Shown here: piece by piece, positions 10,228-14,987 of the stretch
Layout: every line of letters starts with the position of its first letter
How positions within the stretch are numbered: the stretch's first letter is position 1
Source: Sphingopyxis sp.
GTDB taxonomy: Bacteria; Pseudomonadota; Alphaproteobacteria; Sphingomonadales; Sphingomonadaceae
DNA length: 64,000 bases
Direction: 5' to 3'
NCBI GenBank assembly: GCA_030145715.1
Contig: JAIXHQ010000005.1
Coordinates: forward strand, 1-64,000
Program-made: the position numbers and the translations under genes
Notes under the pieces: generated by a model
What the model was told of the DNA's origin: nothing
Database searches by the model: none
Seen by the model: only the letters and a program-made list of their open reading frames with translations

Positions 10228-10818
10228 TCAGACGAGCGCGTCGACCGCGCGTTCGATCATCGCCGCCGCCGCTTCCGCCCCGAAGCTGGCGGCGTCGAGC
10301 GACAGTTCCAGCCATAGGCCGTCGACCATCGCGGTCAGCATGATCGCCAGCCGGTCGGCATCGCGCGCGCCACAGGCGGTCAGCAATTCCGTCAACCGCT
10401 GGCGATAACCGGCATAGCTGTCCGCATGGATCGCCGCCATGCGCGCGTCGCTGCGCGCCAGCGCCCAGAATGCGGTCCAGGCGCCCAGCAGTTCGGGATC
10501 GGTCACCGGGGCGCGAAAGCTGGCGGTCAGATAGGCGCTCAGCCGTCTTCGCGGGTCGTCGCCCGCCGCATCGACCGCGCCCGCGAACACGCCGTCCATC
10601 CGATCGCTCGTCGCCTGATAGGTCGCGGCGACCAGATCGTCGATGCCGCCGAAATAATGGCGCAGCAATCCCGGTGAGACGCCGGCCATCGCGCAGATCG
10701 CCCGAACATTGGTGCCCGCCAGCCCATGGGCGGCCAGACATGCCGCCGTCGCATCGATCAGCGCCGTCCGGCGGGCATCGGCGCTTTCGCGCGTAAAGGC
10801 TTGGCGAGCGGCGGGCAT
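10228..10818 (-). CDS. TetR-family regulator, BetI-like
   Basis: A 196-residue TetR repressor whose HTH (TNVRAICAMAGVSPGLLRHYFGG) closely follows the BetI pattern of choline-responsive regulators. The C-terminal BetI-type domain (GAWTAFWALARSD) is also present. I chose the ATG at 10818 (MPAARQAF). An ATG at 10830 would place the start codon inside the 22-bp palindrome. Most of the 586-residue track ORF lies antisense to the Rieske gene and is shadow. Divergent position suggests control of the Rieske/FAD operon, and the ligand may be choline- or betaine-like, which is inference only. Confidence 0.85.
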   Translation of the reverse strand: MPAARQAFTRESADARRTALIDATAACLAAHGLAGTNVRAICAMAGVSPGLLRHYFGGIDDLVAATYQATSDRMDGVFAGAVDAAGDDPRRRLSAYLTASFRAPVTDPELLGAWTAFWALARSDARMAAIHADSYAGYRQRLTELLTACGARDADRLAIMLTAMVDGLWLELSLDAASFGAEAAAAMIERAVDALV

Positions 10819-10819
10819 G

Positions 10820-10841
10820 TTGTTATACATATGTATAACAA
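10820..10841. promoter_or_regulatory. 22-bp perfect palindrome, probable TetR operator
   Basis: TTGTTATACATATGTATAACAA reads identically on both strands. It fills nearly all the 33 bp between the TetR and Rieske oxygenase start codons and overlaps possible upstream ATGs of both genes. Repressor bound here would block both promoters. Confidence 0.75.
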
Positions 10842-10851
10842 GGAACGATCC

Positions 10852-12018
10852 ATGGCAACTGCACCGCTTCGCGATTCGAATATCGACCCTCTGGACGGCT
10901 GGTCGCTGCCTGCCTGGACCTATAGCGATCCCGATTTCCATGCCGCGGAAATGGAGCGGATCTTTCGTCCGAGCTGGCAGGTCGTGTGCCACGACAGCGA
11001 CATTCCGAACGTCGGCGACTGGCACAGCATCGATTATTGCGGCGAAAGCGTCATTCTGGTCCGCGGCGCCGACCGGACGGTGCGCGCCTTTACCAATGTC
11101 TGCCGCCACCGGGGTTCGCGCCTGGTCGATGGGGCGACGGGCTGTGCGAAGAAACTCGTCTGCCCCTATCATGCCTGGACCTATGAACTCGACGGGCGGC
11201 TGACCGGGGTGCCCGATTCGGCCAGCTATCCGGCGCTGGACAAGGGGAAGGCGGGGCTGGTCCCCGTCGGGCTGGAACGGTGGCGCGGCTTTTGGTTCGT
11301 GCGGCTGGCCGACGATGGCGGCCCGTCCGTCGCGGCGATGATGGCACCCTATGAAGCGATGATCGCGCCTTACCGGTTCGAGGAACTGGGCGCGCTGGGC
11401 CGCGTCACGCTCCGCCCGCGTGCGGTGAACTGGAAGAATGTCGGTGACAATTATTCGGACGGGCTGCACATCCCCGTCGCGCATCCCGGCCTGACGCGGC
11501 TGTTCGGCAAAAGCTATGGCGTCGAGGCCGAGGATAATGTCGATCGCATGTGGGGCGACCTGATCGACCGGCCATCGGTCAATTGGTCCGAACGCATGTA
11601 TCAGCGGTTGCTGCCCCCGGTCCCGCATCTTCCGCAGGCGAACCAGCGCCACTGGCTTTATTTCAAGCTGTGGCCGAACGTCGCCTTTGACATCTATCCC
11701 GACCAGGTCGATTTCATGCAGTGGCTGCCGACCGGCCCGACGACCTGCCTGATCCGTGAAATATCCTATGTGCTGCCCGATGATCGGCGCGAAATGAAGG
11801 CGGCGCGCTACCTCAACTGGCGGATCAATCGTCAGGTGAACGCAGAGGACACCGAACTCATCACCCGCGTTCAGATGGGGATGCAATCGAAAAGCTTTTC
11901 GATGGGGCCGCTCAGCGACAAGGAAGTCTGCCTCAAGCATTTCTGTGCGCGGATGCGCGCGATCATTCCCGAATCCCGCCTTGAACAAGCCCCGCGTGCG
12001 GGATGGAGCAGAGCATGA
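10852..12018 (+). CDS. Rieske [2Fe-2S] oxygenase, alpha subunit
   Basis: A 388-residue ring-hydroxylating-type oxygenase subunit. The Rieske cluster ligands are C-R-H (about residues 84-86) and CPYH (about 104-107), spaced C-x-H-x17-C-x2-H. The mononuclear iron site is seen in NYSDGLHIPVAHPGL (His about 205 and 210), and a later Asp (YPDQVDFMQWLP) may be the third ligand. The family includes aromatic dioxygenases and N-demethylating enzymes such as glycine-betaine and stachydrine demethylases. No beta subunit, ferredoxin or reductase gene is adjacent. The ATG at 10852 follows AAGGA. The last four bases overlap the next gene's start (ATGA). Confidence 0.9.
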   Translation: MATAPLRDSNIDPLDGWSLPAWTYSDPDFHAAEMERIFRPSWQVVCHDSDIPNVGDWHSIDYCGESVILVRGADRTVRAFTNVCRHRGSRLVDGATGCAKKLVCPYHAWTYELDGRLTGVPDSASYPALDKGKAGLVPVGLERWRGFWFVRLADDGGPSVAAMMAPYEAMIAPYRFEELGALGRVTLRPRAVNWKNVGDNYSDGLHIPVAHPGLTRLFGKSYGVEAEDNVDRMWGDLIDRPSVNWSERMYQRLLPPVPHLPQANQRHWLYFKLWPNVAFDIYPDQVDFMQWLPTGPTTCLIREISYVLPDDRREMKAARYLNWRINRQVNAEDTELITRVQMGMQSKSFSMGPLSDKEVCLKHFCARMRAIIPESRLEQAPRAGWSRA

Positions 12019-13619
12019 CCAAAGCCTATGACGCCCTGATTATCGGTGCCGGCCACAACGGCCTTGTCTGTGCCTTTTATCTTGCGAAGGCGGGGCTGAA
12101 GGTCCGCATCGTCGAGGCGCGCGACGTCGTCGGTGGTGCCGCCGTGACCGAGGAATTCGCGCCGGGGTTCCGCAATTCGGTCGCAAGCTATACCGTCAGC
12201 CTGCTCCAGCCCAAGGTGATCGCCGACATGAAGCTGGCCGATCATGGCTATCGCGTCATCGAACGGCCGATCAGCAATTTCCTGCCGCAGGAGGATGGCG
12301 GCTATCTGAAGCTTGGTGGCGGGTTGGAGCGGACGCAGGCCGAGTTCAGCAAATTTTCCGCCCGCGATGCGGCGATGCTGCCCGCTTATTACGACGCGCT
12401 CGAAAATGTCGCCGAATTGCTCCGCGACCTCGCGCTGCGCGTGCCGCCCAATGTCGGCGAAGGGCTGCGCACGCTGTTCGACGGCGCGCGGCAGGGGCGG
12501 CGCTTTGCGACCCTGAACCTCGATCAACAGCGCGACGTGCTCGACCTGTTCACAAAATCGGCGCGCACGATGCTGGACGCCTGGTTCGAAAGCGAGGCGG
12601 TCAAGGCCGCCTTTGGCTTTGACGCGGTCGTCGGCAATTATGCCAGCCCCGACACGCCGGGCAGCGCCTATGTCCTGTTGCATCACGTCTTTGGCGAAGT
12701 GAACGGCAAAAAGGGGGCATGGGGCCACAGCGTCGGCGGGATGGGCCGGATCACCGAGATCATGGCCAAGGTGTGCCGCGCCATGGGGGTCGAGATCAGC
12801 CTGGAAAGCCCGGTCGCGAAAGTGCTGGTCGATGGCGGCAAGGCGGTCGGCGTCAGGCTGGTCGGCGGCGAGGAAATCGCCGCGGCGCGCGTGATCGCGA
12901 ACGTCGGGCCCAAGCTGCTGTACGAACGGATGATGGACGCATCCGACCTGCCCACCGGTTACGACCGCCGGATCCGGGGATTCAAGGCGGGCAGCGGCAC
13001 GTTCCGCATGAATGTCGCGCTGTCGCAGTTGCCGAAATTCACCTGCCTGCCCGAACCGGGCGAGCATCATCAGTCGGGCATCATCCTGGCCCCCACGCTC
13101 GACTATATGGACCGCGCCTTCCTCGACGCCAAACAGCATGGCTGGTCCAAGGCGCCGATCGTCGAGATGCTGATCCCCTCGACCGTCGACGACAGCCTGG
13201 CCCCCGCCGGTCAGCATGTCGCGAGCCTGTTCTGCCAGCAATTCGCGCCCGAACTGCCCGACGGCCGCGACTGGGACGATGAAGAGGAAGCCGCCGCCGA
13301 CTGCATCATCGACACGGTCGAAAAACATGCGCCCGGTTTTCGTGCGAGCATCATCGCCCAGACGCGCCTGTCGCCAAAGGGGCTGGAACGCAAGTTCGGG
13401 CTGGTCGGCGGCGACATCATGCACGGCAACATGAGCCTCGATCAATTGTGGGCCGCGCGCCCGGTGCTGGGCAATGGCGGTTATCGCGGCGCGGTGAAGG
13501 GCCTGTATATATGCGGGGCGGGGACGCATCCGGGCGGCGGCGTCACCGGGGCGCCGGGGCATAATGCGGCCCAGGTGATCCTGCGCGACCGGGGCCTGTT
13601 CGCGCCGCGCTGGCGTTAG
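12015..13619 (+). CDS. FAD-dependent oxidoreductase, phytoene-desaturase/PYROXD2-like
   Basis: A 534-residue flavoprotein with the N-terminal dinucleotide fold DALIIGAGHNGLVCAFYL (about residues 5-22) followed by the EARDVVGGAA motif, and the C-terminal FAD signature GAGTHPGGGVTGAPGHNA shared by CrtI-like enzymes. It resembles the PYROXD2/NAD(P)-FAD oxidoreductase branch rather than true carotenoid desaturases, and no carotenoid genes are nearby. The ATG overlaps the Rieske stop codon as ATGA, so the two proteins are translationally coupled and probably act on the same substrate. It ends within a triple palindromic repeat. Confidence 0.88.
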   Translation: MTKAYDALIIGAGHNGLVCAFYLAKAGLKVRIVEARDVVGGAAVTEEFAPGFRNSVASYTVSLLQPKVIADMKLADHGYRVIERPISNFLPQEDGGYLKLGGGLERTQAEFSKFSARDAAMLPAYYDALENVAELLRDLALRVPPNVGEGLRTLFDGARQGRRFATLNLDQQRDVLDLFTKSARTMLDAWFESEAVKAAFGFDAVVGNYASPDTPGSAYVLLHHVFGEVNGKKGAWGHSVGGMGRITEIMAKVCRAMGVEISLESPVAKVLVDGGKAVGVRLVGGEEIAAARVIANVGPKLLYERMMDASDLPTGYDRRIRGFKAGSGTFRMNVALSQLPKFTCLPEPGEHHQSGIILAPTLDYMDRAFLDAKQHGWSKAPIVEMLIPSTVDDSLAPAGQHVASLFCQQFAPELPDGRDWDDEEEAAADCIIDTVEKHAPGFRASIIAQTRLSPKGLERKFGLVGGDIMHGNMSLDQLWAARPVLGNGGYRGAVKGLYICGAGTHPGGGVTGAPGHNAAQVILRDRGLFAPRWR

Positions 13620-13660
13620 GGTCCTGACCCTAGGGTCCTGACCCTTAGGGTCCTGACCCT
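13618..13660. repeat. three tandem palindromic units between convergent genes
   Basis: AGGGTCCTGACCCT occurs at 13618-13631, 13632-13645 and 13647-13660. Each unit is an inverted repeat (AGGGTC-ct-GACCCT), and adjacent units also form GACCCTAGGGTC. The array covers the flavoprotein stop codon at one end and overlaps the permease stop codon at the other. It may act as a bidirectional transcription barrier. Confidence 0.85.
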
Positions 13661-14987
13661 AGGCGGCGGGCCGGGCGCGCCGCCGCATCGCGAGAAAAAT
13701 CGGCAGGCCCGCGGCGGTCAGCCCCAGGCTCCACAGGCCGGCTTCCAAGCCCGCCCCGTAAAAGGCCCAGCAGCTATAGAGAAAGCCGAGGATGGTCAGC
13801 GCCGCGAAACCGGGCGAGGCGCGGATGTCGCCGTCATTCTCCAGCTTTAGCGCCGCGAGCGCCCCGACGATGTAAAAGATGATCGCGGTCGACGTCGTCA
13901 CCTTGACCATGAAACTGAACAGGTCGGCCAGCCCGCGCGAAAAATTGGCATAGACGATGATGCTGGCGCAGGTGCTGGAAATCAATTGCGTGATCCACGG
14001 CGATGCAAAGCGATTGTCGCGCGCGAACATCGCGGGGAGCAAGCGGCGATGGGCAAGGTCGCGGGGAATTTCACCCTGTAGCAGGACAAAGCCGTTGAGC
14101 GCGCCCAGCGCGGCGATCGCGGCGAACAGCGCGACAACCTGTCCCGCCGATGGGCCGATCAGCGTCCCGAAAAAAGCGGCATAGGCGGCGTTGGACTCCT
14201 GAAGCGTCGCCAGCGGCAGCATCAGCGTGACGGTGGTGCTGGACAGAAGATAGAGAAGGCCGGTCGCGGCGGCGGCGATCAGCATCGAACGCGGGATCGT
14301 CCGTTCGGGATCGCGGACCCGGTCGCTGACGACGGCCGCGCTTTCAAAGCCCAGCAGCGCAAAAAGGGTCAGCGTCGCGGCGGCGCCGACATTGTTCAGG
14401 CTGACCGGCTGTGTCCCCGCCAGCGTCGGCGCGTCGGCGCGTCCCGTCGCGAGCGCCCAGATGGCGACGAGGATCGCGCCGACGATCGGTATCAGCTTGA
14501 GCGCGAGGGTCAGCATCTGCGCATTGCCCGCGCGGCGGACCCCGAACAGGTTGACGATGGTGAACAGCCAGATGAAGCCGATGGCGATCAGCGCGGGACC
14601 GGCCCCGCCGGCCGCCAGCGCCGGCGCCAGGATCGACAGGTTGCTGATCGCTGCGACGGCCAGCGTCGCGACGACCGTCCAGCAACTGATCCAATAGCTC
14701 CACGACACGACGAACCCGGTGCCGGGACCGAACGCCGCCGCGCCATAGGTAAAGGATGCGCAGCCCGTCGGCAGCCGCTTTGCCAGTCGGGCAAAGGCGA
14801 GCGCGAGGCACAGCGTCCCCGCGATCGACACGCCCCAGCCGATGATCGCATTCCAGCCAAGCGGCGCCAGGTCGCGGGGAAGCAGGAACACCCCCGACCC
14901 GATCATATTGCCCATGCCCAGCGCGACGCACATCAAAAGGCCGAGCTTTTGGCCCGGCCTTTCGCTGTTGGTCGTCGTCGCGGTCAC
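13659..14987 (-). CDS. APC-superfamily amino acid/amine permease
   Basis: A 442-residue inner-membrane transporter with about 12 hydrophobic spans. The first span carries the APC signature GLLMCVALGMGNMIGSGVFLLP, where the GSG substrate-binding loop sits, and the VVSDRVRDPERTIPRSM loop is also typical. APC members move amino acids or small amines, often by exchange or proton symport. The start is a GTG 4 nt after the TonB receptor stop, so the two are probably one operon. That suggests the same solute crosses first the outer, then the inner membrane. Confidence 0.9.
   Translation of the reverse strand: MTATTTNSERPGQKLGLLMCVALGMGNMIGSGVFLLPRDLAPLGWNAIIGWGVSIAGTLCLALAFARLAKRLPTGCASFTYGAAAFGPGTGFVVSWSYWISCWTVVATLAVAAISNLSILAPALAAGGAGPALIAIGFIWLFTIVNLFGVRRAGNAQMLTLALKLIPIVGAILVAIWALATGRADAPTLAGTQPVSLNNVGAAATLTLFALLGFESAAVVSDRVRDPERTIPRSMLIAAAATGLLYLLSSTTVTLMLPLATLQESNAAYAAFFGTLIGPSAGQVVALFAAIAALGALNGFVLLQGEIPRDLAHRRLLPAMFARDNRFASPWITQLISSTCASIIVYANFSRGLADLFSFMVKVTTSTAIIFYIVGALAALKLENDGDIRASPGFAALTILGFLYSCWAFYGAGLEAGLWSLGLTAAGLPIFLAMRRRARPAA

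Follow-up and report, generated by a model that had tools for sequence, protein, structure and literature searches.

In the classification of Ahn et al., as summarized in PMC6790063 with AcrR as the example, Type I regulators of the TetR family are divergent from their targets and autoregulatory. The locus analyzed here resembles that arrangement: a tetR-type gene stands divergent from its target, and a palindromic candidate operator lies over the predicted promoters in a short gap. It is set apart by being very compact: a single 22-bp site occupies most of a 33-bp gap, and both predicted -35 elements fall inside the coding sequence of the opposite gene.

Described relatives of the encoded proteins provide a further point of reference. 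BetI, a choline-responsive TetR repressor, shares a TetR_N domain and a BetI-type C-terminal domain (PF13977) with our regulator. The latter, however, scored 106.7 bits against equivalog cut-offs of 201.3 (TIGR03384) and 118 (NF001978) for BetI, and it adjoins genes for a Rieske oxygenase and an FAD oxidoreductase. The best curated and PDB matches of the Rieske protein were GbcA and CntA, the oxygenase subunits of glycine betaine and carnitine monooxygenase, but its score was 148.7 bits against a cut-off of 670 (NF058607), with the best stretch confined to residues 16-246, and a substrate cannot be assigned from this likeness. Literature searches on this operator or the locus turned up no relevant study. 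For promoters, the closest reference is Zymomonas mobilis, a member of the same order, whose reported sigma-A model is TTGNNN-N17-TANNNN followed by a discriminator of 6 bp, the last base of the -10 element being left open (PMC7566282).

The tetR/Rieske module and its divergent gap

The window, by which we mean the whole 64-kb stretch of Sphingopyxis DNA that was analyzed, carries the following features at this locus.

10228 to 10818, minus strand: TetR-family regulator (TetR_N plus BetI-type C-terminal domain), start ATG at 10818 kept in 46/46 loci
10820 to 10841, no strand: palindrome and candidate operator, consensus TTRTTRTAC-N4-GTATAACAR (tetR orientation) over 46 orthologous loci
10852 to 12018, plus strand: Rieske non-haem iron oxygenase alpha subunit (GbcA/CntA-like, from protein matches), first gene of the operon
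12015 to 13619, plus strand: FAD-dependent oxidoreductase (amine oxidase/CrtO-like), its ATG overlapping the Rieske stop codon (ATGA)

The regulator scored 43.2 bits for the N-terminal TetR helix-turn-helix domain (PF00440, cut-off 24), which places it in the family. A longer reading frame for the FAD oxidoreductase, from 12003, is likewise open. Between this gene and a convergent permease gene, overlapping inverted and direct repeats (AGGGTCCTGACCCTAGG) occupy 13618-13663 and are perhaps a two-way terminator.

The sequence TTGTTATACATATGTATAACAA at 10820-10841 forms a perfect 22-bp palindrome, the only one of that length in the window against 0.04 expected from base composition. No second copy with three or fewer mismatches was found in the window or in the 2.83-Mb genome. 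A sequence check confirmed the letters, coordinates and perfect symmetry given in a preliminary description of this DNA, but that account had the palindrome filling the whole divergent gap, and it covers 22 of the 33 bp between the tetR start (10818, minus strand) and the Rieske start (10852, plus strand).

Conservation of the palindrome and its likely owner

We retrieved 45 orthologous loci from Sphingopyxis and near relatives and aligned them on the site together with the window, giving 46 loci. The preliminary description had staked its reading on conservation of the palindrome at such loci, and the consensus TTRTTRTAC-N4-GTATAACAR was indeed present in all 46. On a Rieske gene tree of 41 loci, no change at all fell on 15 of the 18 arm columns, and the four central columns had 5, 11, 9 and 9 changes, close to the fourfold-degenerate sites of tetR (mean of 7.5 changes). 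With arm columns that hardly ever change and central columns that change like neutral fourfold sites, the arms are under selection and the spacer is free to vary. Such a pattern of substitution is what marks a dyad protein-binding site. The genome searches told of the same pairing: each of the 30 searched congeners with tetR had exactly one site, and five congeners without tetR lacked both the Rieske gene and the site.

The palindrome was also found outside the genus. Polymorphobacter (TTGTTTTACACGTGTATAACAA) and Novosphingobium (TTGTTGAACATTCGTATAACAA) keep it at the equivalent tetR/Rieske junction. Caulobacter has the gene order FAD-Rieske-tetR on one strand (L077, L080-L082, L085-L087, L089), and in the eight loci having that stretch a related palindrome, CTATTNTACNNNNGTATAGCAA, lies directly 5' of the FAD gene, the new first gene. 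Two Caulobacter-type genomes searched whole had one such palindrome each. Of all the observations, this relocation along with the operon promoter speaks most strongly for the site being that of this TetR. Homologues of the amino acid permease and TonB receptor of the window are found downstream in the Caulobacter loci.

The palindrome is very probably the shared operator of the adjacent BetI-type TetR, a single site over the start region of both divergent promoters. Sharing by the two genes, as proposed in the preliminary description, draws strong support from the conservation, from the co-occurrence of the site with tetR and the Rieske gene, and from the moved Caulobacter site. Judged by these comparisons, the site is almost certainly a real, selected autoregulatory operator of a Type I (divergent) TetR regulator, a known and ordinary type of bacterial switch. 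It is most improbable that it belongs instead to another regulator, either a global one or one encoded elsewhere. The tie between TetR and the site does rest on sequence comparison, which leaves some room for another owner, but further sites would be expected for a global regulator, whereas here a single site per genome is found only with this tetR/Rieske pair and moves with the operon promoter in Caulobacter. A search for a wider regulon in the Sphingopyxis genome itself returned the one site only; the next best had three mismatches, and a reversed control pattern gave an equal count.

The association of tetR and palindrome is not a universal rule, since two Sphingobium loci encoding a TetR at ~51% identity had no good copy of the palindrome in the DNA examined and no adjacent Rieske gene. 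More remote TetR relatives (~34% identity) in the Rhodospirillales and Rhodobacteraceae have similar palindromes before neighboring catabolic-looking genes. Near distant BetI-like TetR genes, such palindromes precede an FAD/flavin oxidoreductase gene (L091, 5739-5760) and a CocE-like hydrolase gene (L092 and L093, 1951-1972). These may perhaps represent a wider operator family, and we offer them as a lead only.

Predicted promoters and translation starts

A scan of the 46 loci in both directions for a TTG-N17-TA pair identified one universal promoter-like pair per direction, each in 46/46 loci: TTGGCG-N17-TATACA ahead of the Rieske gene and TTGCCA-N17-TACATA ahead of tetR. The predicted elements are as follows.

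10801 to 10806, plus strand: predicted Rieske -35, TTGGCG, within tetR codons 5-6; 46/46 loci, synonymous sites invariant
10824 to 10829, plus strand: predicted Rieske -10, TATACA, in the left operator arm plus the first spacer base, after a 17-bp spacer; 46/46 loci, by the Zymomonas sigma-A model
10853 to 10858, minus strand: predicted tetR -35, TTGCCA, within Rieske codons 1-3; 46/46 loci, no changes on the tree at columns -17 to -10
10830 to 10835, minus strand: predicted tetR -10, TACATA (TA invariant), in the operator, after a 17-bp spacer; 46/46 loci
10840 to 10844, plus strand: Rieske Shine-Dalgarno sequence, AAGGA, which shares its two leading A with the end of the operator; GGA without variation across the 46 loci

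A scan with an E. coli sigma-70 model found no promoter because that model requires a T at the last base of the -10 element, which is absent from the alphaproteobacterial model. The conserved palindrome and the promoter-like pairs of the 46 loci together match the palindromic operator overlapping adjacent promoters that characterizes the TetR family. The operator's single asymmetry fits this map: position 6 is G or A, but the base that mirrors it, which would be the second of the putative Rieske -10 element, is invariant. From the positions of the elements, we infer that transcription would start at about 10835-10837 (plus strand) for the Rieske gene and at about 10823 (minus strand) for tetR.

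With a predicted start point near 10823, the tetR transcript would have a leader of about 5 nt, and no Shine-Dalgarno sequence was found for this gene. Transcripts starting within 5 nt of the start codon were classed as leaderless in Zymomonas, where 119 such TSS-gene pairs were reported (PMC7566282). A leaderless or nearly leaderless tetR mRNA, although unproven, is thus plausible here and the somewhat favored reading. The arrangement is not general, as the tetR start lies further from the operator in Novosphingobium and probably in Polymorphobacter.

Translation might instead begin within the palindrome, making the operator itself coding. The preliminary description suggested that the regulator may be leaderless or may start inside its operator, and pointed to upstream ATGs for both genes in the center of the palindrome (10830, minus strand; 10831, plus strand). 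Both are present and in frame in this genome, and Polymorphobacter has a GTG at the matching central position. These codons, however, fall in the free spacer and occur in just 17 (tetR frame) and 18 (Rieske frame) of the 46 loci, most others having ACG there, whereas the proximal tetR ATG at 10818 is present in every one and the Rieske AAGGA is well placed for the ATG at 10852. The predicted tetR start point (10823) would moreover lie downstream of the ATG at 10830, the Novosphingobium tetR ATG lies beyond the operator, and a later GTG in Polymorphobacter is preceded by AAGG. It is therefore very doubtful that TetR, with or without the Rieske protein, begins at these codons. Least likely of all is a role as an RNA hairpin, either a terminator or a structure in the leader, which we rejected: the strand can fold (-7.5 kcal/mol, z -3.6), as any perfect palindrome would, but the symmetry is imperfect in many orthologues (7-10 of 11 matches), a G at position 6 opposite T permits only a G-U pair, no T-run follows, and with predicted start points inside the palindrome neither mRNA would contain the whole of it.

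Taking the palindrome as the operator of TetR, both predicted -10 elements fall within it, the Rieske -10 in one arm and the tetR -10 starting in the other, so that a single repressor on the site should block the two promoters together; their -35 elements would each lie in the opening codons of the gene across the gap. In the absence of inducer, TetR on the palindrome would keep RNA polymerase from the Rieske-FAD oxidoreductase operon and from its own gene, until a small molecule, probably a substrate or product of the oxygenase, frees it from the operator. Translation of TetR would start at the ATG at 10818, which lies immediately beyond the operator, and its mRNA would have a very short leader or none. 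We infer the binding, the repression, the inducer, the start points and the leader length from sequence. The 9-4-9 arrangement of the arms could accommodate two dimers instead of one, and activation by this TetR is a possible alternative to repression.

This analysis gives a well-supported operator and promoter map for an uncharacterized TetR/Rieske/FAD-oxidoreductase module across Sphingopyxis, Caulobacter and relatives, with which the inducer, and through it the substrate of the oxygenase, can be sought using a simple reporter. It also illustrates how two predicted promoters and one operator may be accommodated in a gap of 33 bp when the opening codons of each gene are put to use, although the principle itself is textbook.

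A conserved element within tetR

The alignment of 46 loci revealed a further element inside the tetR coding sequence.

10779 to 10806, minus strand: near-invariant synonymous sites in tetR codons 5-13, a DNA-level element overlapping the coding sequence and including the predicted Rieske -35 (permutation test)

Synonymous conservation in these codons was the strongest in the gene (modal codon 0.99, against an average of 0.78), a level reached by none of 20000 permutations. The Rieske -35 accounts for codons 5-6 and leaves 21 bp, GGCGCTTTCGCGCGTAAAGGC (10780-10800, tetR codons 7-13), frozen beyond what the -35 needs. No other copy of this stretch with three or fewer mismatches was found in the genome. 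RNA structure at the 5' end of tetR was rejected as the reason for the frozen codons, as folding there is not unusual (z 0.74). The stretch may be a site for a second regulator. A fuller proposal, in which a protein binding GGCGCTTTCGCGCGTAAAGGC upstream and TetR both control the operon and a leaderless tetR mRNA starts in its own operator, is tentative and rather unlikely as a whole.
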